Positions 14,261-52,165 of a stretch of DNA of 64,000 bases are shown piece by piece. Within the stretch, counting starts at the first letter, position 1; each line of letters begins with the position of its first letter. Below the pieces are notes generated by a model. That model was not told the DNA's origin, did no database searches, and saw only the letters and a program-made list of their open reading frames with translations. The translations under genes were made by a program, and so were the position numbers. Source of the DNA: Liolophura sinensis (taxonomy: Eukaryota; Mollusca; Polyplacophora; Chitonida; Chitonidae). The stretch covers positions 2,480,001 to 2,544,000 of the forward strand of contig NC_088300.1 in NCBI RefSeq assembly GCF_032854445.1, written 5' to 3'.

Positions 14261-17200
14261 TGTACAATGTATGTGCTTAAGGTTTCCTGATGGTGACCCA
14301 TGTCTTTTTTTTTACTGTAATTTCAGCCTTATGAGGATGGGGAGCTGCTGAAGCCACCCACACCTGTGCCAAGGCAGACAACTCTGCCCTCAGACCATGC
14401 TGACAACACTGCCATCATTGAGGAGGACAGTCACCTTCAGCACCCTGTCTCTAAGCACCTGTCAGAAGTACAGAGACATAGCGTGAATAGCACGGTCTCT
14501 AGTTCCGGATATGTGGTGAGTTCATCATTGTGTAGTTATTGCTGTAACATCAGTTCTTTAGCATTGTATTAACTCCAGAATAACCACCGTCTCCTTCTTT
14601 CGTCACAGATCCATTCCTGGAGAAATATTTATCTGATTTATCTGTTGGTGCTGATCAGCAACTGTCTGGGAAATGATGCTTGTAATGATACCCTGCTGAA
14701 CTTACATTACTGTCACTCACTTGACTGAGCACACAGATATGCCGTGAAGATGTTTGGTGAACAATGTGTTGCTTTTCTCAGCCTTCGATACCATCAGACA
14801 GATGGTCAAGTTCATACGGAGAAACGGTCTTCGAGCGCACTTTTCCGCCTGATCATCTTCCTTCTCACTCACCTTCTCTGATGACAGCGCTCCCTGGCCG
14901 GGGACATGAGAACTACGCCTACCAGCCTGACAATCATCAGCAGATATCATCTGGGAGCAGCCAGGAACAGAGGTAGGCCTGCGTTGTGCCGTGTACCGGA
15001 GAGAAATCATTCAAGATTGAATTATAACCTGACAAAACTTTTATATTGTTCCCGTGTTGTATTACTCTGTTGAAGCGGTATCTTCAATTTTATTCATTAT
15101 ATTTTCTTTTTAGCTGTGTATGCATTTGTTGGGTTTTTTTTGCACCAAGAGACTATTTGTAAAATTACACCTTACATGTACATTGGTGCAGCAGTTTTGC
15201 GTAAAAAGTGAAACTATGTTAAATGTCATTGATGCATCCGCTCATTGATTCATTTGGTGCTATTTGCTCAAGGGACTTAACTCTGCCTTGATTTTTGTTA
15301 TGTAGACAGACAGGAGGGAGCAGTGACTTGAGAGCTGCCTGGAATCGTCTGTATGGCCAAGAAGGAAAAACTGTGTTAAAACCTCCTGTTCCTCTGTACA
15401 GACCACAGCAGAATGTATGTTTTATTTGCTATTAAACATTTCCTCTAATTTTTGAATTCTATTTTCTTTTATTTTCATGGAAGCATGTTCAGACATGTTA
15501 ATTTTATGAACAAAAATAAGCCTTGTCCTAGTACAAACTTGATCTCTCTACAGTTGACCAGAATGAGTGTTATGTTAATTTTATGAGTAAAAATAAGCCT
15601 TTACTGGATTCCTAAAATGCATAAATCCCCATACAAGGCTCAATTTATTGAGGGTTCAAGAAATTGTACCACTAAACTCTTGTCAGTCTTAATCACGAGA
15701 GCGTTACAGGAAGTAAAGCCATTTTTGAATAAGGATTGTTGACCAGTATGAGTGGCATGTTAATTTTATGAGTAGAAATAAGCCTTGTCCCAGTACAAAC
15801 TTGATCTCTCTTGAACAGTTGACCAGTGTGAATGGTATGTTAATTTTGTTATTCTGATATAATTATAAACTGAATTTCAAATTCAGATAACCAATGCTGT
15901 TAAGAAGGGACCTCCACCTCCCCCACCAATCAGAAATGAGTCTGTTCAGAGGGAGGAAGAGCCAAGAGTCTCTAAAGCAATAACACAGCCCAGAAATAGC
16001 ACACTTCTTCCACCCACTCACTCCTCAGTGAGTGTTTCTCCAGCAGTCAGATTGGAGGAGAGAAAACTCGCCAACGTCCCAATACATGTTTCAAGACCGG
16101 ACAACTTTTTGTATCCTGATGCAGCTGGTTATCCTCATGATGCCCATGGAAATGTAGGTACAGGTAGGAACAGCAACAAGACGGAGAACTCTGAAAACAC
16201 TTCTCGTACTGTCATTGGTGTCAGTCAAGGCAGGCCAGTCACGACAGTCAATCATGTGACATCTACATTCCCACCTGGTACTCCAGGGGTCATTGAAAGG
16301 TCAGGGTCATATGAAGAGTTGGGAATAGTTTCTGAGAAGAAGAAGAATCCATCCACCAAACCATCTCGAGATCCAGGGTTTGTATCACGGCTTTCTTCAC
16401 AAGTGAGGCACGCCAACGAGTTTCCGTCCAGTTATATACCTTCCAGTTCTGACTATGCTGACATTGACGGCCTGGAAGATACTCCTCTGGCAGCCCATGA
16501 CAGTATATTTGACCGCAATAGTGAGGAGTCGTCGGGATCTGTAACTCCGCCTCTTCCACCACTCTCACCATCCAATTCCCCGCCCACCAGTGTGCCGTCC
16601 TCCCCCAACCCTGAACCAAAGTTCCCACGGTCCCTCAGTGCTGACATGCTGTCTACCCCCAAAGCTCCAGACCTTCTGGCCTCCACCAAACAAGCACCTG
16701 CCTCAGCAAAGAATCGCAAAATGACCTCTTCAGAACTCAACTGGAGAAAGTACTCCCCGAGAGAAAATTCCTCCAAGCATCGAAACCAGAAGAGATCTAA
16801 AAATCAGTATGGTAAGCACTGGTGGGTTTTACATGTGTTGTCAGTGTTTCCTGATCATCATTATCTGAATTGCTTGCTAAAATGAAGCTTCACCATCATC
16901 AGCCCACCTGTAGTTGTTATAATGTAGTGTATTAACCACAGACATTTGAAAGTGGTCTTTGTAATGCTACCCTACCGCCAATGTTAGCTCATTTTCTTGT
17001 CATTGGGCAACAATATGTATTGCTCTACATATGTGTTTATAGATTTTTTTTCTTGAAAGTATTAATTATGATCGATTCAATTTTAAAACATCATGTATAC
17101 GTTTGATTTTTGTACGTTTGATTTCTGGCAATTTCCGACTTCACAGCAGCATAATTTTAGACAGGATAAATTAGTACCATGTAAATGTATGATGAATTAT

Positions 17201-20200
17201 CTACATGATTTTTGTTACAGTGTCAGCACTTACAATTTCATGTCTTCTGCATACCTGGATGTATAGTAATTAAATGAGGAGTTTGTGGATCATTTTGAAG
17301 CATTCATATTATAGGTACAGTAACAGAGAAGTAATGATCTTTGTCGTTTTCAGGTATCTCTTTAAATGGGGTCAAAGACTCTGATGAAGAAAGTTTTCCT
17401 TTTGATATTCACAACACAACTTTGACCGTTGAACAGTCCCCTAGAACATCCCAAGATACGGCTAGGGCATCATCCAATCAAATCCGAGACATGCAGCGTA
17501 AGTTGGATGGCCTTGAGGCGTTGTACAGCGAGGTTCTGAAACGTGTGGAACCTTCACGGGGCCTTGGGGTCAGAGAGAGACGCCACAGTATTGGCAGCTC
17601 GGACACAAGCTCCTTCAGGAGAGTAGGACCATTCCGACACTCATCCAGCCACAAACCCCGCATTAAGGATCTCAAGTAGGTTTTCTGTGTTAGACACCAA
17701 CCAAGTGTCATTGAAAGATAAAGGCTTTGTCTTATTAGTTGAAGGTATAAAGAATTGGAAGTCAGTTATGAAAACATTTTTGAAATATTACAGCTATCTG
17801 TTTTGACCAATCTCAAACTCAAACTCACCTGCATTTTCATCTGTAGTTTACTACTGCCCTACAACTGGTGCCCTACTGTCTACCTTCTTAAGGTGTTAAA
17901 ATCCCAATAAAGAAATAAAGCACCACTCTGTACTAAAACAAACATATGTTAATTGAATGTTTGTGGCTGTTAGAATACATATCTAGTCAGTGGTAAAGAA
18001 ATGAGCAGATATAAGAAGAATCCTTTTTTCAAAGCCATCCAGTTGCATGTATGATCACTGTCTGTATACGTCACAGGACCATCAACAAGCGTTTCCAGAA
18101 GCTTGAATCTCATGTCGTCACGCTGGCCAGAAGTGTCGCCCATCTGTCCTCTGAGATGAAATCCCAGAATGCCTTGTTAGTGGAGATGGACAGGTTACGC
18201 CAGGAGGTGAAGGATCTCCGTGAAGTGGCGCTGTCCAATCACAAGAAAGGCCAAGGTCATGTCCCTGACTTTGATAGGTTCCGGGGATGGGTTCCGGCCC
18301 TAACTAACCCCAAACGTGTCAACAAATTGACAAAGTGAGTAGTGTTTATAGTATCGGGGAGTTTTAAGCGAACTCGTGCCTAAAGCGTTTTCAGGTGGAG
18401 ACTGTCTAGATTAAAGATTCTGTCTTCTTAAAGTATGATGAGTATGTAGTCTACATGTTTTATGATGAGTATGTAGTCTACATGTTTTATGATGAGTATG
18501 TAGTCTACATGTTTTATGATGAGTATGTAGTCTACATGTTTTATTATGAGTATGTAGTCTACATGTTTTATGATGAGTATGTAGTCTACATGTTTTATGA
18601 TGAGTATGTAGTCTACATGTTTTATGATGAGTATGTAGTCTACATGTTTTATGATGAGTATGTAGTCTACATGTTTTATGATGAGTATGTAGTCTACATG
18701 TTTTATGATGAGTATGTAGTCTACATGTGTATGATGAGTATGTAGTCTACATGTTTTATGATGAGTATGTAGTCTACATGTTTTATGATGAGTATGTAGT
18801 CTACATGTTTTATGATGAGTATGTAGTCTACATGTTTTATGATGAGTATGTAGTCTACATGTTTTAGGCGGATTTAGGATAATATCCACTGAATTATAAT
18901 TTTCTCCAGTTTCCTGCATGTTTGACTGATAGGACTAATGGGTTCTGCTGAAAGTTCATTAGCCCTTGACCAGTGAGATTGTTCAAACACAGCTGATGTT
19001 AGGTAACTGACCAGGTAACTGTTTCCCCACGACTATGGGCATGACTTCTGCTCAACCAAGCCCATTGGTTCAGTTAGTAGAGTCCGCTTCAGGAGCAGAA
19101 GAACCAGGGTCATTCCTGGGTCGGGCCACATCTAAGACCTTAAAAGAGGAAGTTGTAGCTTCTTCACTTGACGTCTTCATTAAGGGGATAGGGCAACGAC
19201 TGGTTGACTCTTGTCAGTATAATGGCTCGGGTGGGGCGCCTTACTTGCCTTCGGTTAAGCCGTCTCAGTGAAGCCGCACTAGATATAAGAGTGATGGAAA
19301 TCTGTCCTGCAACAAGGAGGCACATCACATGTTCTTGCACTTTAATGACCCCTTCGTCATCATATGACTGAAACATTGTTAAGTACATTTATGACGTTAA
19401 ATCCTAAGCACTCACTCACTCACTCACTCTTCCCTTACTATGGCCAGGTAACTGTTTCCCCACGACTATTGGCTTGACTTCTTCCCCCCTTCAAGTTGCG
19501 TGTGTAAAATATCTTTGCCTGTAGGGTAAAGCAGCTGTCAGATATATATATAAGTATCTTGTATATCACTAAAGATTAGCTGCATATATAATGAATGTTC
19601 TCAGACACAACTGAGTCCAGCTATTAAAACTGGCTGGCTTGGCAGAGGACAGTCTCAGCATAAGGGAAAAGCGGTGAATTAAGCATGGAAAATCAGGCAA
19701 ATCTCTAGACCTGAAGGTTTTCATTGAAGTGCTTTGATAGAAAAATGATTGATATTTTTTGGGGGATGGGAGTTTTATACCATAGAAATGTTAGGAAGTG
19801 TTATCCTATTTGCTGTGAAATGATGATTATCATAAACGATTTTAAGACTTCTCTATGTAGTTTATCTGTTCTGGACCAGATCATAAGACAAAATATGAAA
19901 ATATAAAATTGCTTGGTACTTTCCACATTTGGAAATTATAAGCATTAGTGGTATATAAAGATGAGAGAAAAGACATAGACAGGAGACAGATTTCCAGTTT
20001 CATCTTGCAATGGGAATTCTGTAGAAATCTGAATTAAGAAAAAATTGTTATGTCACAGGTAAAAGCTGTTCTTTGAGACTGAGAAACAAATTTCATGTGC
20101 CATATTATACCAACATCTTACCTTTTCTTACGGTTAATTTGTCTTAATTTTACGGTACTCATTATGAGTGTTCTTTTCAGATTTTTTGGTCAGGAGCCTC

Positions 20201-21243
20201 CACTGTTAGAGATTTTCCTGCGGAGACTTGGTTATGAGGTAGGTGAAATTTGATTTGTGAATATGAATGACGGTATGGTAACGATGTACATTGTATGCTA
20301 CAACGGTCATTTCAGGTACTGCAGATACATGTACATGGATATTTTGCATGTAAGTACTTAAGTATCTAGGTACATGTTATGATGTGGGTGTGTCAGCACC
20401 CAGGTATTCGCGTGTGTCAGTTATCAGCTATGACCATGATCATGTGTAAATTGTTTACACCCACACAAGTACTTATGCATCAGTAGGTCTATGGTTGTGT
20501 TAAGATGTTCAGTGTGTCATATTCTAGCCTGTACAGGGGAATGACAGGAAATGTCCACTACAGTCACATACACATGTATAAGAGAGTCACATGTGAGAGA
20601 TTAACCAGTGTAATTCAGCAGTTCACATTAGGTTTAAAGTAGATGACTGGGGCCTGACATCACTGACTTATTTACAGTTTACGATTTTTACGATTACATT
20701 TTGCAGTTTTTGTTGTGAACTTAAGAACACATTGCAATTACATGTACATGCAGTACCTGTAATAAAATGAATAAAAATACAATAATGTGTTTACTTACTG
20801 GATTACTTACTGTAGCCTATAAGCTTCTCAATGTTGTTGCCCTGTTGTGTCTTGTCCAGTATGACCTTTCCTCCTAATGTACACTTACACAATAAACTAA
20901 GATGTTGGACAGTGTTTTATGAGCCCATAAGATAACACATGTACAAATGTGAAGCTTCAAAGTGTTTTCTAGTCTTCTAGGTTTGCAAATTCTGTGAAGG
21001 TAAAAGGATAAGAGTTATATAAAAACTCTTGAAGATCTTTAGTTGCATGTAGGTCTCATTTCATCTAATTTTCAGAAATTTACACAAAACTTCAAGGTGG
21101 AACATATTGGTATGATTGAGCTTCCATACATGACAGAGGAGAGGTTAAAAACAATAGGGATTCCCATGGGACCTAGGCTAAGGATCCTACAGGAGGCTCA
21201 GCTCTGCTTCAGACAGGAGAACTTTGACATTTACATCGTCTGA
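10271..21243 (+). CDS. SAM-domain, coiled-coil, proline/serine-rich protein (C-terminal 980 aa, 13 exons)
   Basis: Exons: 10271-10469, 10917-11026, 11555-11767, 12362-12469, 12785-12877, 14327-14515, 14782-14972, 15306-15414, 15887-16811, 17354-17675, 18077-18334, 20181-20238 and 21076-21243. All have AG/GT borders and their phases join into one frame of 981 codons including TGA. The first two thirds are low-complexity Pro/Ser/Thr/Gln-rich with a GPPPPPP run in the ninth exon, typical of a disordered scaffold. Exons 10-11 carry coiled-coil heptads (IRDMQRKLDGLEALYSEVLK; later MDRLRQEVKDLREV). The last two exons form a SAM domain (PPLLEIFLRRLGYEKF, then LPYMTEERLKTIGIPMGP). The chain ends FDIYIV, a possible class II PDZ ligand. 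The N-terminus is missing or starts in exon 1, where an ATG at 10262 lies in frame. Adaptor or cytoskeletal scaffold is the likely role by architecture. I cannot name an orthologue. Confidence 0.88.
10585..10605 (+). repeat. Poly-G tract (21 G)
   Basis: Uninterrupted run of 21 G in the first intron of the SAM-domain gene. Length is likely uncertain in the assembly. Confidence 0.9.
11815..11872 (+). mobile_element. SINE family A fragment
   Basis: Short match to the internal part of SINE family A: TCTCACCAGTGATG, then GTGAGTTCAAGTCC, which is the B-box-like pol III region, then a CTGACTCTCTGG block. Neither end of the element is present. It lies in the intron after the third exon of the SAM gene. 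Confidence 0.6.
12052..12136 (+). mobile_element. 85 bp mini-SINE (family A head joined to tail) with 14 bp target duplication
   Basis: The first ~45 bases match the tRNA-like head of family A (GGGGCCTCCATGACTCAGTT, GCGCTAGCGCAGCG). They are joined directly to the 3' end (TGTGAAATATTCCTGAGCAC, AACACCAATCAAATAAA). About 170 internal bases, including the B box, are absent. It is flanked by perfect 14 bp direct repeats TACTAAATCATCTT at 12038-12051 and 12137-12150, so both ends are true insertion ends. Confidence 0.85.
13723..13935. repeat. Minisatellite, 18 bp unit
   Basis: About 12 copies of an 18 bp unit, GATGTATTGGTATCCCTG with variants, in an intron of the SAM-domain gene. It is open in several frames because 18 is a multiple of three (MYWYPD-like on +, YQYIRDTNTSG-like on -). 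No coding evidence. Confidence 0.92.
14180..14258. repeat. (AT)n microsatellite with A-run
   Basis: About 80 bases of alternating AT broken by an A11 run, about 70 bases upstream of the exon at 14327. Can form a cruciform or hairpin and is prone to assembly error. Confidence 0.95.
18434..18866. repeat. Minisatellite, 27 bp unit
   Basis: About 16 nearly perfect copies of a 27 bp unit containing GATGAGTATGTAGTCTACAT. The core GTAGTCTAC is close to self-complementary. The array sits in the intron between the coiled-coil exon ending 18334 and the SAM exon at 20181. Frames are open on both strands only because 27 is nine codons. Confidence 0.95.
19049..19428 (+). mobile_element. SINE family B copy, (ACTC)n tail
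   Basis: tRNA-like head (TTGGTTCAGTTAGTAGAGTC, then GGTCATTCCTGGGTCGGGCC), body shared with 57373-57716 (CTTAAAAGAGGAAGTTGTAG, AACAAGGAGGCACATCACAT), then TTAAGTACATTTATGACGTT and CACTCACTCACTCACTC. Direct repeats of about 40 bp (AGGTAACTGTTTCCCCACGA core) occur on both sides, at about 19012-19050 and 19444-19483. It lies in a SAM-gene intron. Confidence 0.85.
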
Positions 21244-21925
21244 GGATCCTACAGGAGGTCTAGCTCTGCTTCAGACAGGAGAACTTTGACATTTACATCG
21301 TCTGAAGATCCTACAGGAGGTCTAGCTCTGCTTCAGACATGTTAACTTCGGCATTTACATTGTCTGAGGACCCTACAGGAGGTCCAGCTCTGCTTCAGAC
21401 AGGAGAACTTTGACATTACATTGTCTGAGGATCCTACAGGAGGCTCAGCTCTACTTCAGACAGGAGAACTTTGACATTTACTTCGTCTGAGGATCCTACA
21501 GGAGGTCTAGCTCTGCTTCAGACAGGAGAACTTTGACATTTACATCGTCTGAAGATCCTACAGGAGGTCTAGCTCTGCTTCAGACATGTTAACTTCGGCA
21601 TTTACATTGTCTGAGGACCCTACAGGAGGTCCAGCTCTGCTTCAGACAGGAGAACTTTGACATTACATTGTCTGAAGATGGTACAGGAGGCACAGCACTG
21701 CTTCAGACAGGTGAATAACATTTGCATCATCTCAGGACCCTACAGGAGGTCCAGCTCTGCTTCAGACAGGAGAACTTTAACATTACATTGTCTGAAGATG
21801 GTACAGGAGGCACAACACTGCTTCAGACAGGTGAATAACATTTGCATCATCTCAGGACCCTACAGGAGGGCCCAGCACTGCTTCAGACAGGAGAACTTTG
21901 ACATTTATATTGTCTGAGGATGCCT
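21180..21925 (+). repeat. 61-62 bp array derived from the last coding exon of the SAM gene
   Basis: The first unit is the end of the coding exon itself, encoding RILQEAQLCFRQENFDIYIV and the TGA. About eleven further copies follow head to tail, each with the GGATCCTACAGGAGG start and a version of GAGAACTTTGACATTTACAT. A four-unit block (about 21243-21489) recurs at 21490-21735. Unit length is not a multiple of three and most copies carry the TGA, so only the first copy should be translated. Decayed copies continue to about 22200. Confidence 0.93.
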
Positions 21926-22374
21926 AAAGGAGGTCCAGTTTTGCTTCATAAAGGGCACAGTTTGACACTTAGGATCCTAGTACTATGACAATTATTAGCT
22001 GAGGATCCAGGATTTGTGACATTATCATTGTCAGAGTATTCAGAAAATGTGAGTAACATGGTGTGAGGATCCTACAACTGTCACATTAACATTAAGATTC
22101 TGCAGGAAGCACAGCTCTACTCTATACAGGATGTCTTTGACATAAAACATTGTGCAGGATCCTACATTGACAGAACTCTGCCTTTTTGACATTGTCACAG
22201 GGATCTTACCTGAGGACCTTACATGATCTGACAAATTTAGAAATCAGTTGACAGCTGATGCGGTAATTCTGAGTCTTGAGTGCTAAACCATCTACACAAT
22301 GAACAGCTGCTGTGCATTCAAGACATTTGTACATGAGAAAACTGTATGTATTGTATAAACCTTCATGCTCCTCT

Positions 22375-23105
22375 GTATGACTGATATGTGAGAGATATGT
22401 GGACATGTGATAACAAACGTGTATCCAGTGTGTATGACTGATATGAGAGATACGTGGACGTGTGATAACAAACTTGTATCCAGTGTGTATGACTGGTGTG
22501 TGAGAGATACGTGGACGTGTGATAACAAACGTGTATCCAGTGTGTATGACTGGTGTGTGAGAGATACATGGACATGTGATAACAAACGTGTATCCAGTGT
22601 GTATGACTGATATGAGAGATACGTGGACGTGTGATAACAAACGTGTATCCAGTGTGTATGACTGATATGTGAGAGATACGTGGACATGTGATAACAAACG
22701 TGTATCCAGTGTGTATGACTGGTGTGTGAGAGATACGTGGATGTGTGATAACAAACGTGTATCCAGTGTGTATGACTGAGATGTGAGAGAGACGTGGACA
22801 TGTGATAACAAACGTGTATCCAGTGTGTATGACTGATATGTGAGAGATACGTGGACGTGTGATAACAAACGTGTATCCAGTGTGTATGACTGGTGTGTGA
22901 GAGATACGTGGATGTGTGATAACAAACGTGTATCCAGTGTGTATGACTGATATGAGAGATACGTGGACGTGTGATAACAAACGTGTATCCAGTGTGTATG
23001 ACTGATATGTGAGAGATACGTGGACATGTGATAACAAACGTGTATCCAGTGTGTATGACTAATATGTGAGAGATACATGGACATGTGATTACAAACATGT
23101 ATCCA
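22375..23105. repeat. Minisatellite, 57 bp unit
   Basis: About 12.7 copies of a 57 bp unit containing GTGATAACAAACGTGTATCC and AGTGTGTATGACTGATATGT. The unit lacks stops in all three minus frames, so 224-, 268- and 292-codon frames overlap there. That is expected from the repeat and not evidence of a gene. Units ending GGTGTGTG alternate with GATATG(TG) units. Confidence 0.94.
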
Positions 23106-24290
23106 GTTTATGCACCTTTATAAAATTCCTTTTGAATTACTACTTTTCTGTGTTGGGAAGCACAGTCAGGCACTCTGGCCAATGATAATTCACCAGTTCA
23201 TTCAGAAAGCTAATGACTGTTCAGGTTTAATCCAATTGGTTAATGATAAATAATGGTACAGTAAGATTACATTAGAAGCTGCCCCATGTGCTGAGCGCAA
23301 GTAATAAGCATCTTTGGCACAAATTAGTTTTAGAACTCCATTCATAAATTTTTCTTCTCACCGGTAATTATGAACATAATTCAAAACCATGCACTTTATT
23401 TAAAGCAAAGGAATTGTTTGTGGTGTGTGTCTTTAAATTTTTTTCCAGAAGTATTTAGCAGTATTTTTTTATATTTACATGATCAGTGGGTGTGAGAAGT
23501 GATTTTTTTTAAAGTATTTAGAAAATTTGCATAATGCACTTTAGGACTGTCAAAACATTCCAAACTCTTAGTTTTGTACAAGGTGGGGTTTTACAGATAT
23601 CCATTTTCTACTATTTGTACATATTTATCATCAGGTTTATGTTTTATCTTACCTATCATCAAATATTGACATATATACTATATTCTTATAAGTTATACAT
23701 GTATATTGATGTTTGAAATAACTACTCACTGAAAACATTGTATATGCTTAATTTGTGCTACACACCACCTTTGACAGCCTCTGTATTGTTGAAGCTGAAG
23801 AAAGAAATAAAGATATATAATCAGTCAAAGTATGATTCTCTTTTGACATTAGAATTTTCTAAATTTGCTGTGGCTGGTTCAGATGGTTACAGCAAAAGAT
23901 ACCTTGACAATTGTGTGCTTGCATACAGCTTGCTACTCTTGGCCTGCAGTTTTTAGTCAGGAGGTTTACCAGGAGAAGAGCATTTGTTTACCCCACACAC
24001 TGCTGCTTCTCCACCTTTCTGGGAAAAATTCTTCAGTGCAGCATTAATCACCATGCAAATGAAGAAATGCATTTCTGAGATACTGACATCATGTTGGCAG
24101 CTCAATTATTAAAGTAAATTGCAAGCTGAAAAATGTGTGAATGAAAACAGGATTATGGTAATCAGCTTTTAAGAGAAATTATTGGTAACTATTCAGTCTA
24201 AGAAATGGATGAACTTCTGATTTTTATACTCCGAAAATGAGAGGTTAGAATGCCTCTTAACTTCAGGAGATCATTCACCCGTTGGAGATC
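23106..24290. other. AT-rich unique sequence; possible poly(A) signal
   Basis: No gene seen. The first AATAAA that I noticed on + after the SAM-gene stop is at 23806-23811. If it is used, the 3' UTR would contain both the exon-derived array and the 57 bp array. This is only a candidate. Confidence 0.35.
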
Positions 24291-25095
24291 TGGTTCTTGA
24301 CACTAGGGGATGATACTTTACATCTGGGGGTGATTTTGTCATCAGGGGAGGGGTGGTTTTTCATATCAGAGGATTCTTTTCATATCAAGGGAGTTACAGA
24401 CGATTCTTCATATCAGGGGGAGGCTTTTCATATCAAGGGTGTTGCAGACGATTCTTCGTATCAGGGGAAGGTTTTGCATATCGAGGGAGTTGCAGACGCT
24501 TCTTCATATCAGGGGAAAGGTTTTCATATCAAAGGAGTTGCAGGCGCTTCTTCATATCAGGGGAAGATTTTTCATATCAGGGGAGTTGCAGACGATTCTT
24601 CATATCAGGGGAAGCTTTTCATATCAAGGGAGTTGCAAACTCTTCTTCCTATCAGGGGAAGCTTTTCCATATTGGGGGAGTTTGCAGATGATTCTTCAGA
24701 TCAGGAGTTGATTCTGCAGGGGAGCTGCAGACGCTTCTTCATATCAGGAAGATCTTTCATATCAGGGGAGTTGCAGACGATTCTTCATATCAGGGGAAAC
24801 TTTTCATATCAAGGGAGTTGCAAACTCTTCATTCCTATCAGGGGAAGCTTTTCCATATTGGGGGAGTTGCAGATGATTCTTCAGATCAGGAGTTGATTCT
24901 GCAGGGGAGCTGCAGACGCTTCTTCATATCAGGGAAGATCTTTCATATCAGGGGAGTTGCAGACGATACTTCATATCAGGGGAAACTTTTCATATCAAGG
25001 GAGTTGCAAACTCTTCTTTCTATCAGGGGAAGCTTTTCCATATTGGAAGTTGCAGATGATTCTTCAGATCAGGGGGTTGATTCTGCACAATGTAT
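24291..25095. repeat. Minisatellite, ~48 bp unit with higher-order repeat
   Basis: About 16 copies of a unit near 48 bp built from CTTCATATCAGGGGAAG and CTTTTCATATCAAGGGAGTT. From about 24640 a four-monomer block of 184-190 bp repeats, marked by CAGATCAGGAGTTGATTCTG. Several overlapping + frames up to 204 codons are by-products of the 16-codon unit. Confidence 0.92.
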
Positions 25096-25427
25096 GGTTG
25101 TTCAACCAGAAATTGGTTCTTGACATAAGAAAATGCTCTTGTAAAGAAAGGCTTTTCATACCTCTTCATTTTGTGAATGCTTCATTGACATTAAAGAATA
25201 AATGACGGTTACATACGTCTGTAAACAAACAGAAGAGCCCCACTCTTCCACTTTGATTATAAGTGTTTTGTATCTTGAAAAGCAGTTGCCTATTTATCTC
25301 CTGGATAAACTTTCATCTTTCATCCTAAGTTTGTTTCACTGGTTTCTGAATCCTTCATCACATGTTGGTTAATGGCTTTATTCTGGTCTCTGAATCCTTG
25401 CCCTGAAGTAGATCAGCCTTGTTCTGA

Positions 25428-25500
25428 TCCTGGAAACGTTTTGTATGGAATCCTGACCACCGTTGAGTACTACTTGAAACACCAATCAAATAGATAAATG
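25428..25500 (+). mobile_element. SINE family A 3' end fragment
   Basis: Carries the GAGTACTACTTGAAACACCAATC block and ATAGATAAATG tail of family A, with the 5' part missing. Confidence 0.6.
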
Positions 25501-25521
25501 TCCTACGATTTTCCACTAACA

Positions 25522-25705
25522 ATTTATCATGCTGGCTTCCTCTCTGGCCGTGGTTGGGAAGGTCTGCCAGCAATCTGCGGATGGTCATGGGTTTCCCTCG
25601 GGCTCTGCCCGATTTCCTCCCATCACAATGCTGAGCCGCCGTCGTATAAGTGAAATTTTCTTCATTACGCATAAAACACCTGTCAAATAAATTAACCAAA
25701 TAAAA
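25522..25705 (+). mobile_element. SINE family A, 5'-truncated
   Basis: Starts within the internal part (CATGCTGGCTTCCTCTCTGG), continues through GGATGGTCATGGGTTTCC, CTCCCATCACAATGCTGAGC and CGTCGTATAAGTGAAATTTT, and ends AAACACCTGTCAAATAAATT. Diverged by several percent from the 55358 copy. Confidence 0.85.
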
Positions 25706-27494
25706 GTCCAGTGACTCCTAAGCTCCTATTTTTCTCATTGTCCTATTGTGTGTCCGAAACCTCCTATATTGCCTATATTTTTGCCAGTTTTCCTCCTATA
25801 TGTTTGTTTTTTTTAGTTTTATTTTTGTGGGCCTTTCGGCAAATTGCAAATTGAATTGCATTTCGGCAAATATTAGTATGTCCACTCTTTTGTTCTGTCA
25901 AAACGCATCACATGTAATGCGGAGGCTGGTTAGTTATAACTCCAAGGTTCAACGTCATGAATGTAGCCTTATGAGAAAGAGGTGCATGTTCTAGGGATGG
26001 TGAGGTGTAGCCACGCTCCATTTATCGTGAAAGTCTGCCGACCTGGTCGGGGCTTGAATGTTCTCCCATCATTCGATCTCTGGAATACAATTCGCTCTTA
26101 ATATAATCAAAATAATCCTGTATGATAGGAGATGTAGGACGCACGCATAATTCGAAAGAATCTGTGTGTGGGAAAGCGGATTGTTGATCCAAAATGTGAA
26201 GAAGAAAAAGATTTTAAATTTCCCGCTTAGAATAATGTTGAACATTAAAGTGTTTAACGAAACGGTTTAGCGAAATTTTGCCATTTTCTGGGTGTTTACT
26301 GGATCTCGTGTACGCCGTCCAAGGCAAAACGCAAGGACGGTTGATGAACCTTAACTGGTACTCGCCTACATGTCCTTGGTCTTTCGCATTTCCACGATGC
26401 AGCCGGTGATATTAGATAGGCCGATAGTGGCTCATTGTGCCAAATTACTGAATGCTATTGTGTCTGAGTAATTTTCTGAGTATGTATAAACCCGTTATAT
26501 GGTGTAAGGAGCCGTGTTAGTGTAAGGAGCAAGAAAGGAAGGAAATGATCAGCATATACAGGGTCACGGCGTATAAAGGTCACGGTTAGCTTTGTTTAGG
26601 CTAGAAATGGTGAACAGTGAATACTAACCTATTTATCATGAAACAAAAATTGTTAAGTACAACGTTAAACCGCAAGCACTCACTCACTCACTCATGAAAC
26701 AAAGACCGATATTCACAATTCATTGTTTATGTTTAACTTGCGTCATCTCGCATGTTAACAAGGCTTATGTAGCCTTGTTAACATGAACAGAAATCCAAGC
26801 TGCAGGTTTAATAATAAACTTTTTGTAAATTACTATATATTTAGTCTGGCAGTGGTAATCTATATACCGGATGTAGTGTGGTTAAACTAAAATTCATTCA
26901 AAATGCCCTTGAACTGACATCGTGTATCATAAAGATCAGCACAAAGGTGACATGACCAAGGTCAGTGAGTACATACCTTTACTGTATGCACGAAAGTCTG
27001 TGACTATTGTTTTATATCTATAACTCTTTCTTGAATACAGCGTTACACACCAATCAAACAAATAAATATTTATAATATATATACTTGCTGGTTTAATGCC
27101 ATGAACTGATAATTCTCCATGTCAAAATGTTAACGAATGCAACATAGGGATGTTTTCAAAAATGCACACATTTACAAAACTTTTTACCTTTGTATCTGAA
27201 CTACGACGAAAACCCGAATGACAAATCTCTATGTACCGTATACCTATATCGAAACCTATACAGAACACATAGTACAGAATAGCTGTTGCCAATACAGAGA
27301 TTCGGCACCAGCGAAAAATATTGCCCGACTCTGACTGAATAGAGATGAAAAGATATGCGTGTGGAAATATGCGCGAGTGGAAATATGTGCGAGTGGAAAT
27401 ATGTGCGTGTGTAGATATGAAGTGATTTTCCAACTTTTTCTCAATACAACCATGTTTTGGACATATTGTATTTTCTTTTTATTTTTTTTTTTTG
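25706..27494. other. Unique sequence without a supported gene
   Basis: No domain or spliced frame recognised. It contains a family B SINE tail at about 26640-26694 (GTTAAGTACAACGTTAAACC then CACTCACTCACTCA) and a short 17 bp repeat around GAGTGGAAATATGTGC at 27355-27410. Confidence 0.5.
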
Positions 27495-30508: not shown

Positions 30509-32552
30509 AGAGTATTTCCTTTATGGCCAGTATTTACCAACCATGTTCCCATACAGAGTTAACTATTTGTGTGTCAGGTGGGTCAACCGTTGGGTTTTGG
30601 GAAACTATGCAACTGCCCATTGTAAGTGGTAGATTAGTGATTTTACGAATCGAAAATATGAAATTATTATTTAGATATCCATTTGTGATGAATATTTACT
30701 GCTCACACGTGTCCTACCTTGTAAGCATCGACCATGGTCAACTGGTCTACCTCTTAAATGTTGTATCCGCGGGTCCTGAACTCGTTACATTCACGTTTAA
30801 CAGCTATGTGTAGTCCATATGTGTAGTCTATAAATAGACCTACTTATTAAACAGAGTCTGTAAAGGCTCTAGTGTTGTCCTATGAAATAAGTAATGGTTT
30901 TGAATGAATGTCTGTACGCCACATCAATGCCATGAAAGTAAAACTCACATACCCATTCAAAAACTTCATTGTTAACACGTGCCCCTTTATTTGTGTGATT
31001 CCTGAGTCCTGTGGATTTTTTAAATTTTATTTTTGTATTTTTTTTTAGTTTTTTTGTTTTGTTTTTGTTTGTTTGTTTGTTTTGTTTTTTCTTTCGGCTT
31101 TTTTATTCCAATCCTGTTTTTGTGCATAGAACCGACTTCAGTTATATAAACTTCAGTGTAATAAGGACATGGCCAATTAACTGACACAATGATACGGTTA
31201 TACAGTTATTTACATGAATTTGCTGTGACATACATAGCTATAAACACTTATGCTGAGGTGTTGAAAAAAAAAAAGGATTTTCGTACAGCTGCTTCCGCCC
31301 TGAGCTGACATTCGCTCTTAACTGTGTTTATGCCGGAATTGTTTTTCATCAGTACTTTTGAAGGACAGGAAAAACAGATTGTAATTGACTACCCTTGAAA
31401 ATTGGTTTAACACGTACATACTGACGGCTGTACACACCCCCATGTAAAAAGTTGACAACAGATTTCCGCCTGTGTTCAGTCACGTGACAAAACATAAATG
31501 AAAGGTCCTCGTGTTAATTCCGTGTTGACAAATGGTCACACGTATAACCAGTGAAATATGGCCTCTTGTCAGTTTACCTCAGTTATAGGGTTTTATTCTA
31601 ACTGTTTATGTAAATTATTAAATAGTAGCAAATTGCGAGTCCACTAGCACCACAGCTTAACACAATTAGGTACAAAATACTCATTGCTGTTTGTTGTGAT
31701 TCATTAGATGTAACTGGTCTAAAATTACTTCAAACATTGTGTTGATATCACATTTAAAATACAATAACCGGAAAACAATGCAAATTAAGGCATGTGGTTA
31801 AGGTGTTAATGTAAGTCAGTTCTCAAAGACAAATCCGCATGAAGCGACTGGGATCTCTGAATAATTATTCTTTTATTTCTTTTACCGTCCGCATCAACGG
31901 TTTTGTCATGGAAGATTTGGAATATTAATTAAAACTTTCTGAGGCATAAGGCTAGATAGGTGTAGATGTATCAAAGGCCAAACTAATGCATTCTTTGTGC
32001 ATGGCCTACTTCACAAATGTATAAACACAAGGGTTATGTTTTTTGTACAACTGATGTTATCGGGCAAACATTACATTATCACTAACACCATCTAGCCATT
32101 TTCATGTACCCGCTTGTCTACGGGGATATAGGTGCAGAAGTACTACCGATGTTTCTGTGACGTGACATTAGGCAAACAACGGCGCAATTAAAACAGGACA
32201 CACATGCGTCTTGGAATGTCATAGGCCAGTTGTAAAAGTTACGCAGATCAGGACTTGGACATAAGAATTATTACGTCGATTAAAGCCTAGCCTACATAAT
32301 ATGGTGCAACTGCCTATGCAAAGGTTAAGCTTTGGTTACATATGCTAATTTACCCTATGGCAATCCGGCAAAGGAATCAAACTATAAGTTTATGCACGTC
32401 ATTTGCACAAATAGTTGTAACACCTTGCTCTGCCCGGCAAAGTATTAACAGTCGTGGAAAGGGCACCCCTCCTCTAGATCCTCGTTAGAATTTCATTGGT
32501 GAACAGTATCGCACATTTACAATGCACTTCAATCATCCGGTTATATACTGCA
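30509..32552. other. Intergenic AT-rich sequence
   Basis: Space between the broken kinase (-) and the P450 (+). It holds T/G-rich low complexity at about 31020-31100 and no supported gene. A 96-codon + frame at 30523-30813 has no recognisable feature. Confidence 0.5.
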
Positions 32553-32560
32553 TATAAAAG
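32553..32560 (+). promoter_or_regulatory. TATA box of the P450 gene
   Basis: TATAAAAG lies 56 bases before an in-frame ATG at 32616 and 125 before the preferred ATG at 32685. A transcript start near 32585 would be expected. A short upstream frame begins at 32588 (ATG TTT TCT TGA). Confidence 0.5.
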
Positions 32561-32684
32561 GGGTCATTCACACACGATTTTAGCTAAATGTTTTCTTGAT
32601 TTGCGCTGGTGTTACATGCACTCCTGTAGCGAGTCTTTGTACATCGTTCTTGAAAAGATCACTTCCTGGATCTATTTGTTCAAG

Positions 32685-35600
32685 ATGTCGACTAAGAGCA
32701 CCGAGGACATCGCTAACACTTTAGTGAAATATTTTAAAGAAAGTGAAGTGACGGAATATTTGAAGCGGTGGATCCTAACTTTGATGCGGTATATAAATTC
32801 TGAGTCTGGCGTTTCGCATCATCACATAAAAACATGTCACAAAAACTCACATTGCAGTTGTGACGTGTCGCATTGCGGAACCCTACCATTCTCAGCGATT
32901 CCACAGAAAAGGGGTTACCCACTGATTGGCTGCATGCTAGACTATTATCATAATCTGGGCAAAACTCATTGGCTCTTATCTCAGCGAAGTGAAGAATTCG
33001 GAGCAATCTTCAAGGAGAAGGTTGGTTCTACGGAGATCGTGTTTGTATCGGACCTCGAAGCAGTGGAGACGATGGTGAAATTTGAAGGACGTCACCCTTA
33101 CCATTTTGACGTGGCACCCTGGCTCGAGTATCGGAGGGAGAGTGGGAAAGCTTGTGGAATCTTGACTGCGTGAGTAGAAAATGTATTCCTTTTAAGAAAT
33201 ATGAAACGAGTTTAAGTTGAGATTGTCAATAGTGGTTGAGTGAGGCAATCTCCCAAAACAGTTAAGGAGACTTACGTGGTTCTAGCGTTCTTTCTTTTGT
33301 TGCTTGGTGTGTGATTGATTAGTTGTCTTTTTCTTTTTTTTCTTTTAATTTGTTTTCTGTCTTTTCGAATGATACACAATGCACAACTGCAAACTGAAGC
33401 CTCTGATTAGCGGAAGATTCGAGTTCGATCCCCATCTCGGCTATAAAGGTTATAAGCTGTTTACCGGTCCAGTCGGCCTGTAAATGGTTAGACTGGGTGA
33501 GGTGTCTTGAACATGATGTTCCAGTACATCAGCTGTACAAGGCCTGCTTCAAGACGACACGTTGGTGTGTTGCCGTTATATCGTTAACACTGGGTTAAAA
33601 ACTTCTGTTCTTTCGGAAAAGTTTGATGCATTGCCTTGCCGGTGAATGTAACAGCTGATAACGGTGTGGTTGGGAACATGACAAGTTTAAAAAGGGAAAT
33701 ATATTTTTTTTAAATTTGGATGTTTTTTTATGTTTCTTTTTTCAGCCAGGGCGAGGACTGGGGTAGGATGAGAAGGGCCATAAACCGTCATTTACTGAGG
33801 TCCAAGCACGTGGCAGATTTCAGCTGTGACCTGAATGTCGTGACCGAGGATTTCCTGAGTCGGTTAGCCAGAATCCGAACAGCAGATAACACTGTCCCTG
33901 ACCTACACCACGAAGTGCTACGGTGGGCACTGGAATGTAAGGAGTCTTTGTTGTTATAGTATATGTACTTTATCATATAGGTAACAAGCATATCATTTTT
34001 ACAAAATATGGCGAGGATTTGATAAAACATATTTTCAGTGTGTAGTGTTGGTTGTTCCTTTAATAGATAAAAGTGCCAGTTCATTTTGTGTGGTTTTTCC
34101 CTAAAAAAGTTCGCTCTGGATGGGCCGTGTGTGTCCTTACCCCAGGTAGACTGAAGGTTACCATGATATATATGCGTGTGGTATTCTCTAGCTGAGGTTT
34201 CTGGTGGGGAAGAGTTGGTCTTTCTTTTTCGCAAGCACATACAGTCAGCGACATCGTAAAAGAGGGGTATTTTAGCAACTCAAGAATTAAAAGAATCAAA
34301 GGAGAGGATCGCTCTTTCTATACATTTCTGGACTGAAACAAAATACCCTCTATAATCTATAGCATCAGCATATACATGCAAATCACATTTCTCTTTAATG
34401 TAGATATACTGGTTATATTAACACTTTGTTCTGAAAAGCCTGAAATAACGAAATGTTGCTTTGTTAGCCACGGGGGTAGTTCTGTTCGAGAAGAGGCTGG
34501 GGTGCCTGGAGGATCGCCCGAACCCAGACACGGAGACTTTCATCCGAGATGCCGAGAACATCATGTCCCTAACACAGCAACTTATATACCTACCTACGTC
34601 ATTTGCCAAGGTGATTCTTCACTCCACGTGGAAAAAGCACGCGCAATGCTGGGATGCATTGTTTTCGATGGGTGAGTGTAACGCGTGCATGCATGCGTTG
34701 GATGAGCATCCCGATAGTGAGTTCCCTAGCTTCCCTATGTGGCGCGAGAGTCTGAGTTTATATATATCTTCGATACTGGTGCCAAGCATATTTATGAGGG
34801 AAATATAGCTAAACATGATCATATAGGTGTATGTTGACTTCGCATTTCATTTATCGTTTCTTTTTTTATGTTTTTTACGTGTACTTGTTCGTACGGTCGT
34901 TTATTCAACAGTTTATCAACAAAGTTTGCAAATAGTATTTCGGAGAAATCAAAACAATATTTTTTTTTTGAAGGACAACATAAACCTTTGTAAAATAAAA
35001 TTTACTGTGTGGGAAGAAATGAAGGCTTGTTAAAAAAAAGCAAAAAAAAAAACATTTTTCAACAATAGCCCATGTCTCATTTTCGTCATTCTGGCAAGTC
35101 TCATTTTCATCAACAAACTGTGTCTCATTTTCATCACTAGTTCGTGTCTAATTTTCAGCGCAGAAATGTGTAGACGAGAAAATATCTGCTCTGCAGGAGA
35201 ATGAGGAGAAAGACGAGGCGATGGGTGGGTTTCTGTCGTACTTACTGGCTCATGGATCTATGAGTGCGGAGGAAGTGTACGCCAATGTCATAGAGCTGAT
35301 GATTGGTGGAATTCACAGCGTAAGTGTACTCACGATGCTCTTACCGACGGATACAGGTGTTTATGTTTGTGAAAGTGCTTGGGAATCAGTTGTAATTATA
35401 TACTCTATACGCTGCATATGGTGGCTGTTTGGTGTGCAAACAATCTGAAAAAATAACAAATACCTGAAAATAAAAATTTCTGGAATATTGTTCCTTCTAA
35501 TTTTTCCGAGAACGTAATTTGTCTACAAACGGCTAACAGCATAGCGAGTAAAATCAGAGCAGTCATGACAGTGTGATAATTGGCAAATGGTCACATGTTA

Positions 35601-38600
35601 TTGATTAAATCGGGTCTCTTTACAAAAACCGTTCATGTAAATGCTTAAATATAACAGCAGCTTATGCACGTCTCTTAGAACCATGGTTTCAGCAGATTTA
35701 TTGGGCCATTAATCGTTCATTAGGACGATATTCACATTAGGTATTCTTTACAGTCTATTGTATGCTGTGAAAAGGTATAGTAGGTGAACAGCTCCCGCTT
35801 TGAACAATTTATGATGATGATGGTTTTCATTTTTAAGTCATAGCGACTCTATTCTTCTGGAGTTTCAGTTGAACATTTGAAATATTCTGAAATATTTTCT
35901 TTGAGTAGTTTTACCTATGGCCCCTTCAAATATTTCCGTCTACATGGAGAATTCTTGCGAGAAGTTCATCCTGTTTATGACACGAAAATGTCAATTTTGC
36001 GGTCATTCGAATGAACCTCTTTCTGTGACCTTTGTTTCCACTTAAGCTTACTGTGAAACTTGTCACTGAATTGCGACAACATGCTTTCTCTTGTCGTTTT
36101 CACTATATGCTCGCATGCCCATGGAATCCAAATATATGTAATGGAAGACTACAGTAGCTCACGTGTATCATGATAAGTAGCAGTAAAACACAGGATGAAC
36201 AACGATGCAGATTCCGATATGTTAGTATTGTATCCTTGGTCCGTGACACCAATAAACCGCAGTCCATTCATTGCATGTACCGGCCATGGTACTTTACTAT
36301 GTCTCATGCAATAGCAGAGGTATACTTTGTGTTTCAGACGACAAGTATCGTACAGTGGTTACTGTACGAGTTGTCACGGAGCCCCTCCTCCCAGGAGAGC
36401 CTGTACACAGAGTTGTCCCAGCGGTTGCCCACTTCTGCCCAGATCACAGCTTCCCAGATGAGCCACATGCCCTACCTACAGGCCGCTCTGCAGGAGGCAC
36501 TCAGGTGGGTTGTGGTTATAACAAGCTAGGACGTTTACAATACAGACAATAATTCTATTGTGTTCGGACCTAATTAAGTCAACTATCATGACAAGTTTGG
36601 TTTTGCATAAAACTTTGTACAGTGAGATAATTGTGCGACCTTTGGGCAGTAGAGTTCACATATTGTTCACTAATGTCTTTGTTGTGACATTTTGTCTGCA
36701 AACCAGCTCATTCCGAGAGAGTAGTTTTTAATTCAGCTTTGAATCGAGCCGCCATTACGCGGTAAAAGATGCCCCATTAGTTATTGCTTTGCTGGCTAAC
36801 CAACACTGTTAACCGAGTGTATTTTGTCCCTCTGTCCAGACTGTATCCCGTGGCTGGTGGAATTCCCCGTATCTTACAGACTGACCAGACACTCTGTGGC
36901 TACAGACTGCCTAAAGGGGTAAGCCGGGCATACAGAGATAATGACACCCGCTCATCCACCAGACCTTGTCAACTGCAAACTTCTAAGATCGATACAGTTA
37001 CATATTTTATTGTTACGGGTAAATTTACCACGTACTCAGACCAGAATATTATACTAATAGGCGGTCAGATTTACAGATGGAGTAAACAACACAAAGCCCA
37101 ATGGAAGTTAAGCGCGGAACCGCGTCAGTTATCTTGGAGTAAATAAATCGAATATTTTTACAGTAATTTGACTGATATTGAAGATTATTTAATGCATTTG
37201 ATTTAAGATAAAATGAATTTCAAGACATGTCAAAGTTTCTGCATAACAATGGAATACAAGCATTTTTCCTACATGTGCAGGCATGTTCATTTTGCCTACA
37301 GGTAAATAAATTTGACATTTAAAGCTTGTAACATTTGTAAAATGAAATACACTAACTAGATCACTTATCAAATTGCTGATCTTTTCTTTTGTTTGATAGG
37401 CGAACGTAATGGTGCTTACTCATGTCATTGGTCGGAGTCCAGACCTGTTTGAGAACCCTGACAATTTTTGCCCTGATCGATGGCTTCAGTCAGGTTTATC
37501 CGAACAGCACAGGCTGTTAAAGGATCTTGCTTTCGGAATGGGCAACAGGATGTGTGTTGGTAAGCCTACTGCCCTCTTACATCTAAATATAATAGGCCTA
37601 TGTACATAATGATTGATATTGGTTGTTTAACGTGATTTCCTTAAGAATTTTCACATGTACAAAAGCGATCAATTTTATTCTGGGATATGACAGTAGCATG
37701 TACAGAAGGATGTAAATCTAACTGTACCCTATAGACAGATCACACACCTCCAGGATACAGATCGTGGGCTAAAGTAAACGAGGGGAATCGTGGTATAAAA
37801 AATAATGACAAATTAGATACTGTACATGGGACCGTCAACTAGGAAAGGGTCATCATTTCCGTGGTTTAAATACCTATACATGTATATCTACTGTGATTCA
37901 TATAGATCATGTGACGGGGCCTCCGTGACCGAGGGGAATTAGGGCGCGCCAGCGCGGCGCAATGACCCGGAAGCCTCTCATCAATGCGGTCGCTGTGAGT
38001 TCAAGTCCAGCTCATGCTGCCTTCCTCTCCGGCCGTACGTGGGGAGGTCTGCCAACAACCTGCAGGCGGTCGTGGGTTTCCTCCTGGCTCTGCTCGGTTT
38101 CCTCCCACCATAATGCTGGCCGCCGTCATAAAAGTGAAATATTCTTGCGTAATTCGTGAAACACCAATCAAATAAATAAATAAATAGACCAGGTGAATGG
38201 ACAACATACAAATATTGGCCTACTCTGTAAAATTCATTTAACTATATGCGCCTCAGCACATTCTTCCCCGTGAGAGCTGTTCAACATCGCATCTGCCTTC
38301 ATCCTGAGGCGACAAATACAACATGAGCTGAAAATGTAATATGTAATCCTGTTTGTTCCGTAAACTGATGCAAGCTGTAAAATGATATTCTTTGTTCTTT
38401 GTACACATCATTATATGTCATATAGACATACCTATTAAATTTAAGTGTTATATTTCCAGGTAAACGTATTGGTGAGCTAGAGATCAAAATCCTGCTATCC
38501 CGTGTGAGTGTAGTTGTACTCTGAATGTCATATGTTCGGCTATTCTATTTTCTATGTAAATCCTAATCCTCATGTAGCCGCGGAGCCGGTAAATTTGTTC

Positions 38601-43634: not shown

Positions 43635-43870
43635 AAGCATGCAAACCTAGCTGTAATTACACAAATCCTAAGAAAAGGGAGAGAGGACATGCAAACCTGT
43701 AATTAATCCTAAGAAAAGGGAGAGAGGACATGCAAACCTCTAATTACATAATCCTAGGAAAGGGGACAAAAACATGCAAACCTGTAATTAATCCTAAGAA
43801 AAGGGAGAGAGGACATGCAAACCTCTAATTACATAAATCCTAGGAAAGGGGACAAAAACATGCAAACCTG
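43635..43870. repeat. Short tandem repeat, ~50 bp units
   Basis: About four to five copies of units containing AATCCTAAGAAAAGGGAGAG, GACATGCAAACCT and CTAATTACATAA. Related sequence (AAAACATGCAAACCCTGTTA) also stands alone at about 41540, so the unit was already present as a single copy elsewhere. Confidence 0.85.
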
Positions 43871-44565
43871 TAATTGCAGAGCACATATGGAGGTGTGTGT
43901 GTGGGGGGGGGGGGGGCATACACACTTGTAATTACAGATCACCTATGGTGGTGGAAGGTAACATGCAAACCTGTAATTACAGAGCAGCTATGGAGGTGTG
44001 GGGGGGGGGGGGAGGGGGCATACACACTTGTAATTACAGATCACCTATGTTGGTGGAAGGTAACATGCAAACCTATAATTACAGAGCACATATGGAGGTG
44101 TGGGGGGGAGGGGCATACACACTTGTAATTACAGATCACCTATGGTGGTGGAAGGTAACATGCAAACCTGTAATTACAGAGCACCTATGGAGGTGTGGGG
44201 GAAGGGGGGCATAACTCATTTGTAATTACAGATCACCTATGGTGGTGGAAGGTAACATGCAAACCTGTAATTACAGAGCACCTATGGAGGTGTGGGGGGG
44301 GGGGCATACACAGTTGTAATTACAGATCACCTATGGTGGTGGAAGGTAACATGCAAACCTGTAATTACAGAGCACCTATGGAGGTGTGGGGGAGGGGGCA
44401 TACACACTTGTAATTACAGATCACCTATGGTGGTGGAAGGTAACATGCAAACCTCTAATTACAGAGCACCTGTGGAGGTGTGGGGGGAGGGGGCATACAC
44501 ACTTGTAATTACAGATCACCTATGGTGGTGGAAGGTAACATGCAAACCTGTAATTACACAACTCC
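43871..44565. repeat. Minisatellite, ~95-105 bp dimeric unit with G-runs
   Basis: About seven copies. Each is two related halves: one with GCACCTATGGAGGTGTG followed by a variable G-run and CATACACA, the other with GATCACCTATGGTGGTGGAA and GGTAACATGCAAACC. Unit length varies because the G-run varies (about 5 to 13 G). It lies 350 bases upstream of the ABRA-like exon. Confidence 0.93.
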
Positions 44566-44908: not shown

Positions 44909-45428
44909 AACTATGGCTTACAGAGCTGTTTGAAGGGGCAGATAGCTCAGTGGCAGAAGAAAGCTGACGAACACGAAGAGAGGCAGCTGATCAATCCGTC
45001 TCTCAGACTGGGAGGGGGCGTCTCACAGGACCAAGCTGTCTAAAAATGACGCTAACTATGGACGACCTGTTGAGGGTTCCATGACGGAAACCCGCGGGAA
45101 GAAGGCTGGTCAAATGGTCAGTGGGGAGATCATAGAGCTCTGCCAGGTGATTCGTGAATTAGGGGTCCGTCAACGTGATGGCACCTATGTCATACCGTTC
45201 GGCCAACTGTTTGAGGCGTACACGCGGATTTCCAACAAGCTCGTCGGCATGCTGATGAGGGCTCGTAAGCAGAACTTGGTAAGCTTTACGGGAGAGATGC
45301 TCTACCAGCGACGGGATGACCACGTGGTCATTACTTTACTGCGCGTACCAGAATGTTTGCAGGAATTTTTTCAGAAAATATCACTGACATTAAAAATTTA
45401 TTCCTATGCAATCTTTCGCTGCAAATAA
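44909..45428 (+). CDS. ABRA/STARS-like costars-domain protein, terminal exon, one-base frame break
   Basis: The exon follows a CTCACAG acceptor. First frame: LKGQIAQWQKKADEHEERQL then INP, which resembles the segment before the costars domain in ABRA (STARS), an actin-binding activator of Rho/SRF signalling. At 44996-45001 one extra base shifts the frame. In the next frame the family pattern continues (SDWEGASHR, then NYGRPVEGS), followed by the costars domain: EIIELCQVIRELG, IPFGQLFEAYTRISNKLVGM, LMRARKQNLVSFTGEML, RRDDHVVITLL. A TAA ends it at 45428, leaving about 24 residues past the usual domain end. Without the shift, translation stops at 45042-45044. The break could be a real null allele, a sequence error, or something bypassed. 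The gene symbol is not certain because vertebrate ABRA and invertebrate costars proteins overlap here. Upstream exons are unproven. Confidence 0.85.
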
Positions 45429-51879: not shown

Positions 51880-52165
51880 TGTTTCATTTTGTTCTGTATC
51901 CACTTGACGGTAGTAATATCACCGAGGGCAACTCTATATGAGGTCGATGTAATACCTAGAGGATGATTGCCAATATAAGCTTTGTTCTGTATCCACTTGA
52001 CGGTAGTAATATCACCGAGGGCAGCTCTATATGAGGTCGATGTAATACCTAGAGGATGATTGCCAATATAAGCTTTGTTCTGTATCCACTTGACGGTAGT
52101 AATATCACCGAGGGCAGCTCTATATGAGGTAGATGTAATACCTAGAGGATGATTGCCAATATAGG
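51880..52165. repeat. Three-copy tandem repeat, 93 bp unit
   Basis: Three copies of a 93 bp unit containing GTATCCACTTGACGGTAGTA and GATGATTGCCAATATAAGCT, nearly identical. On the minus strand 93 bp is 31 codons without a stop, giving a 146-codon frame around AYIGNHPLGITSTSYRAALG. It has no splice context that I can see. Confidence 0.93.

Follow-up and report, generated by a model that had tools for sequence, protein, structure and literature searches.

A minisatellite lying across the stop codon of a SAM-domain gene in Liolophura sinensis

The SAM gene and its surroundings

The window analyzed here is a 64,000-nucleotide stretch of Liolophura sinensis DNA (NC_088300.1, positions 2,480,001 to 2,544,000) on a contig of 82 Mb, one of 632 that make up the 609-Mb genome; coordinates below are those of the window, and the SAM gene and its array lie on the forward strand. 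The penultimate coding exon of this gene (20181–20238), recognized by its AG/GT borders and by a SAM_2 match on the spliced protein, encodes the N-terminal part of the SAM domain, FFGQEPPLLEIFLRRLGYE, between a TTTTCAG acceptor and a GAG/GTAGGT donor, and the codon preceding FFGQEPPLLEIFLRRLGYE is split between it and an upstream exon that ends at 18334 with the donor ACAAA/GTGAGT. The last coding exon (21076–21243, including the TGA at 21241–21243) directly follows a second TTTTCAG acceptor, and its coding part (21076–21240) supplies the remaining SAM residues and a C-terminal tail, LCFRQENFDIYIV, as supported by the acceptor, the SAM_2 alignment, and the open frame.

The 74-residue spliced end matched the Pfam family SAM_2 at residues 10–61 (E = 1e-9), scoring 38.8 bits against a family cut-off of 20.5 bits, which places it among SAM domains, and the reading frame closes 13 residues past the end of the match, which we take to be the last helix of the fold. 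No Pfam family exceeded its cut-off in three upstream open frames. The nearest solved SAM domains by sequence were those of plant HP30-1 (3.3e-6), USH1G (0.0028), and ANKS4B (0.0092). Within the genome, a protein search with the SAM exon returned 12 matches, 10 of them in its own locus, and recovered no close relative elsewhere, the best being 33% identical (E 0.18) in a search that can miss matches. Class II PDZ ligands follow the pattern hydrophobic-x-hydrophobic-COOH; the C-terminus, ...IYIV-stop, fits this pattern, so the possible PDZ ligand named in a preliminary description of this DNA stands at the level of a motif match, with binding putative.

Several other features were present in the window. 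A second minisatellite (22374–23107; 57 bp, 13 copies, with higher-order periods of 169/226 bp) begins ∼190 bp past the decayed end of the array described below, and no similarity to the exon-derived unit was found in 22240–22374. Three open frames on the forward strand (32478–36526) match cytochrome P450 and probably belong to one multi-exon gene, and a Costars-domain exon (44991–45425, Pfam 1.6e-31) lies beside tandem arrays at 43654–44558. On the reverse strand, three 93-bp units with 98% matches (51888–52163) share, as judged by eye, one open frame, AYIGNHPLGITSTSYRAALGDITTVKWIQNK; these may be coding repeats or a product of chance.

Structure and genomic setting of the array

Tandem Repeats Finder (TRF) delimited an array at 21181–21948 with periods of 62 bp (12.5 copies) and 247 bp (3.1 copies). 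Twelve clear units fill 21181–21916, with lengths of 62, 62, 62, 61, 62, 62, 62, 61, 59, 61, 59, and 63 bp (in similarity scoring, the unit tree, edit distances, and junction modelling, the final unit was ended one base early, at 21915). Head-to-tail units of 10–100 bp at one locus define a minisatellite, and these 12 units of 59–63 bp form one. Unit 0 (21181–21242) is the coding copy itself: it encodes RILQEAQLCFRQENFDIYIV, begins within the SAM-coding part of the exon, and ends with the TG of the stop codon, the A being the first base of unit 1, so that the TGA spans a unit junction. The preliminary description was therefore right that the unit is the end of the coding exon, but had placed the entire TGA within it. 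Likewise, its “about a dozen copies” correspond to 11 clear copies after unit 0, and it overlooked decayed copies extending to about 22181.

These decayed copies, about three in number (21917–22181), were examined by wraparound alignment against 100 shuffles each. The first (21916–21972) scored 29 vs. a shuffle maximum of 14 and the third (22105–22181) 30 vs. 16; the middle one (21973–22104) is weakly supported, its score of 21 barely passing a maximum of 20. Beyond them, a unit copy was not detected at 22182–22260 (score 13, below the shuffle maximum of 19), and a second scoring of 22150–22260 gave 25, over the 95% point of the shuffles (22) and under their maximum (36). On the exon side, no unit similarity was found at 21076–21180 (score 16 vs. 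a shuffle mean of 16.2), and the array therefore has its edge among the codons for the end of the SAM domain. The assembly shows a single copy of the locus, and no further copies of the unit were found elsewhere in the genome, in searches that can miss common or weak matches.

Edit distances resolved the clear units into two blocks of 247 bp and a distal remainder. The first block (21181–21427) consists of unit 0 and units 1–3 (21243–21427), and the second of units 4–7 (21428–21674); the remaining units 8–11 (21675–21916) show a dimer pattern of 59 + 61 bp and end with the 63-bp unit 11, one frame of which again codes CFRQENFDIYIV followed by a stop. Successive units of the two blocks differ by 2, 0, 0, and 0 edits, units 5–7 being identical to units 1–3, which bears out the four-unit block of about 247 bp already noted from the sequence. 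Both differences fall in unit 4, where they change C to Y and I to F in the frame of the exon, and both are absent from the other 11 clear units, although one is shared with the decayed copy at 22105. With both edits confined to unit 4, the exon copy was part of the duplicated block or was converted together with it; the coding copy has thus taken part in a recent block duplication or conversion. Units were most similar at lag 4 (mean 5.8 edits) and lag 2 (6.9), with lags 1, 3, 5, 6, and 7 at 9.2–11.4, and decay is strongest in copies at a distance from the exon. Between units 0 and 1, three adjacent bases are the sole difference, and the unit 1 version of these bases is an in-frame TAG within the end of the SAM domain; the missing TAG in unit 0 fits selection keeping this triplet out of the exon and, as a single case, is suggestive.

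Minisatellites (period at least 10, at least 3 copies, about 100 bp or more) were scored in 13 sampled 10-kb pieces, where they cover 28,206 of 130,000 bases (22%; 0–74% per piece), compared with 18.6% of the window. Four of the 13 pieces are free of minisatellites, and in two others they make up 74% and 50% of the sequence, many different units adjoining one another. Under a laxer array definition, stop codons fell within arrays at 0 of 30 receptor loci (the best 30 of 150 matches listed) and 0 of 12 C1q loci (the best 12 of 38), that is, 0 of 42 in a biased sample that lies nearly all far from the SAM locus and consists of first in-frame stops rather than verified gene ends; one receptor stop lay inside the match, and three stops, two receptor and one C1q, lay 127 to 1,111 bases beyond it. 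Density of arrays alone does not predict this outcome, and chance placement at the stop codon, considered because 22% of sampled bases are minisatellite, was rejected with none of the 42 stops in an array. Placement of an array at a stop codon thus looks uncommon, although even a 1% rate would amount to many such genes. The preliminary description had called an exon-derived array behind its own stop unusual, which agrees with the 42 other stops and is tempered by the abundance of minisatellites in the sampled genome and by the similar mirages of amphioxus (see below).

At the receptor loci, arrays occupied 277 of the 38,790 bases flanking the 3′ side and 355 of the 36,000 on the 5′ side; at the C1q loci they occupied 2,187 of 40,392 bases. 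Both sets (0.7–1.0% and 5.4%, respectively) are far poorer in minisatellites than the sampled genome; arrays may have been removed from their vicinity, or these genes may lie in array-poor regions.

Origin of the array and its bearing on the protein

The SAM match finishes with the first seven codons of the unit (RILQEAQ), and removal of the residues that the unit encodes lowers the SAM_2 score by 8.7 bits, to 30.1. This contribution is specific in part only, as a version of the domain ending in RILQEV scored 37.3 bits and a version with unit 11 attached (RTLQEG...) 33.2 bits. Because RILQEAQ lies within the SAM domain and the exon holds no unit copy upstream of it, the array would derive from the exon, a direction that domain homology supports but does not prove; the tail beyond the match could have either origin. 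To this extent the homology favors the earlier proposal that the exon seeded the array, whereas alignment of the units leaves its root unsettled: the unit tree, in which the exon copy clusters with units 4, 8, and 10, is unrooted with supports of 0.58–1.00, in part weak, and was dropped as evidence of direction. The stop codon straddles a unit junction, and we infer that amplification took place after this codon was in place.

In the reverse order of events, an older minisatellite behind the gene would have donated the tail, the exon having taken LCFRQENFDIYIV, for example, through loss of an earlier stop or exchange with the array. Such an origin would suit a genome rich in arrays and a tail not covered by the SAM match. 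Unit 0 also shares its final 43 bases with units 1 and 5, themselves identical, so that the tail may have been overwritten from the array. The fit of RILQEAQ to the end of the domain is, however, not what a random array would be likely to provide, and the similarity to the array stops within the SAM-coding part; we therefore consider an array-first origin unlikely. A once-translated array, with coding selection on units that are now non-coding, was also rejected: unit 0 differs from the clear units by 23 distinct substitutions at codon positions 1/2/3 in the numbers 5/9/9 (13/16/17 of 46 with the inclusion of two decayed copies that aligned poorly), and this lack of third-position bias leaves the idea without support.

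The array is a putative part of the 3′ UTR. The first AATAAA past the stop, a possible but unproved polyadenylation signal, lies on the forward strand at 23806–23811, 2,563 bases from the stop codon, with the nearer one-base variants CATAAA at 21947 and TATAAA at 22354; if the gene ends at this AATAAA, both minisatellites are within its 3′ UTR. Units 8 and 10 contain a donor-like CAG/GTGAAT, and 11 of the 12 clear units contain an acceptor-like CTGCTTCAG; these sequences, counted rather than splice-scored, offer material for cryptic exons, a potential also proposed for mirages (PMC3087553). These splice-like sequences, and the absence of AATAAA within 2.5 kb of the stop, are what could be expected if the array were irrelevant to the mRNA, either because the true last exon lies elsewhere or because the transcript terminates no further than the first units. 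Nevertheless, the SAM match is completed in the exon here taken as the last, the frame closes soon after it, and by eye no good donor is present between the end of the match and the TGA, all of which makes this reading quite improbable.

Unequal exchange could alter the C-terminus, as the preliminary description had held, and the outcome was modelled by replacing the whole of unit 0 with each of the other 11 units. Unit 4 leaves the length unchanged; units 1, 2, 5, and 6 shorten the protein by 14 residues through the in-frame TAG, and unit 11 by 5; units 3, 7, and 9 lengthen it by 14–15 residues, and units 10 and 8 by 20 and 60, respectively, again with the ending ENFDIYIV. Nine of these 11 products end ≤15 residues from the normal end. 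Among 668 modelled aligned junctions, with length changes from −14 to +61, 317 kept the normal length and 380 kept IYIV, and 550 (82%) ended within the same 15 residues; a shuffled array joined in the same way did so in 72% of 6,000 trials, and in 63% of 5,000 trials when all of unit 0 was replaced. It is accurate, then, that most recombinants would find a stop close by, but the property exceeds chance only modestly. Truncation might leave the SAM domain intact, as the RILQEV version retains 37.3 of its 38.8 bits.

The array might also be viewed as a sequence reserve on which exchange or gene conversion draws to rewrite the last 20 residues of the protein, the C-terminus evolving in concert with the 3′ flank. 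This we regard as an improbable reading, under which allelic C-termini would segregate (truncated RILQEV, same-length YFV, and extended forms ending ENFDIYIV). Still less probable is that selection maintains the array as a working store of cassettes or as a regulatory element of the 3′ UTR: units 4, 8, 10, and 11 do give, or lie in, frames with an ENFDIY(I/F)V-type C-terminus, but units 1, 2, 5, and 6 lead to a truncated end, changes among units have no codon-position bias, the neighborhood is filled with other arrays, and an Rfam search of 17000–26000 found no family at the gathering threshold. A misassembled copy number or order of blocks, for which the identical pairs 1/5, 2/6, and 3/7 at a locus of one copy would offer scope for misjoining, is hardly credible given the graded differences among units and the decayed far copies, and would change the unit count and not the identity of exon and array.

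The explanation we judge probable is that the end of the coding exon was duplicated over its own stop codon and grew by ordinary turnover into a minisatellite of ∼15 units that occupies the 3′ flank or 3′ UTR. The process most likely started by slippage or unequal exchange between short matches, CTAAGGATCC in the exon and CTGAGGAT past the stop, which would have tandemly duplicated the exon end, and further growth by replication slippage or unequal exchange would be ordinary in an array-rich genome. Unit 0 would have stayed coding, presumably under purifying selection, which the codon positions of its differences (5/9/9) do not demonstrate, while the remaining units would be untranslated and drifting; activity would persist on the exon side, where the 247-bp block starting with the exon copy appears recently duplicated. 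Neutral turnover of the array, under selection that would maintain the exon copy, is the most likely account, and a function of the array beyond turnover is not supported. With an array over the stop codon and the coding copy in a duplicated block, the locus is a natural test of how fast repeat turnover changes a C-terminus and of whether selection excludes harmful units from the coding slot.

Comparison with known systems

Minisatellites in or beside the end of a transcript are familiar from coding and 3′ UTR VNTRs, for example the SLC6A3 3′ UTR and the coding arrays of CEL and MUC1; we know of none among such VNTRs whose unit is the end of an exon plus its own stop. No published array spanning a stop codon was recognized among titles, abstract openings, and passages of PMC1273636, a body of text that constitutes weak evidence.

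In human segmental-duplication genes, variable internal tandem repeats arose by exonic minisatellite expansion, and the seven frame-shifting cases described all lie in the last coding exon, lengthen the protein at its end, and may evade nonsense-mediated decay (PMC2812944). The SAM array is likewise a minisatellite expansion in an exon, but the human repeats lie inside the coding sequence of paralogs, whereas the SAM copies lie past the stop and could enter the protein only by exchange or conversion. By one estimate, up to 1% of human proteins may have frame-shifting tandem-repeat polymorphisms (PMC1273636), in which a change in the number of repeat copies affects protein length or frame; unlike the SAM array, these are mostly short units within reading frames.

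The closest known structures are the mirages of amphioxus, tandem copies over intron-exon boundaries described in globin genes and Adh3 (PMC3087553) and further in TnC and PGBD5 (PMC3902484). In Adh3, TnC, the globins BflGb6 and BflGb9, and PGBD5, minisatellite-like copies stand at the edge of a coding exon beside the authentic copy, with units that range from 10–72 bp in Adh3 to some 160 bp in the globins, with concerted evolution inside clusters, and with regular splicing reportedly undisturbed (PMC3087553, PMC3902484); Adh3 mirages also show haplotype length differences and somatic instability (PMC3087553). The SAM array shares with them an authentic copy at the edge, in the coding unit 0, and concerted evolution, in the identity of units 1–3 with units 5–7. 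Mirages span intron-exon boundaries, whereas the stretch copied from the SAM gene starts within the last exon and runs over the stop codon at that exon's outer end; because it includes no known splice boundary, the array is best described as mirage-like and kept outside that class. In the BflGb6 mirage, moreover, the cluster boundaries are reported as excluded from homogenization (PMC3087553, PMC3902484), unlike the SAM array, in which the edge next to the exon belongs to the young block and decay affects the opposite end. The SAM array is something similar to a mirage, placed at a stop codon.
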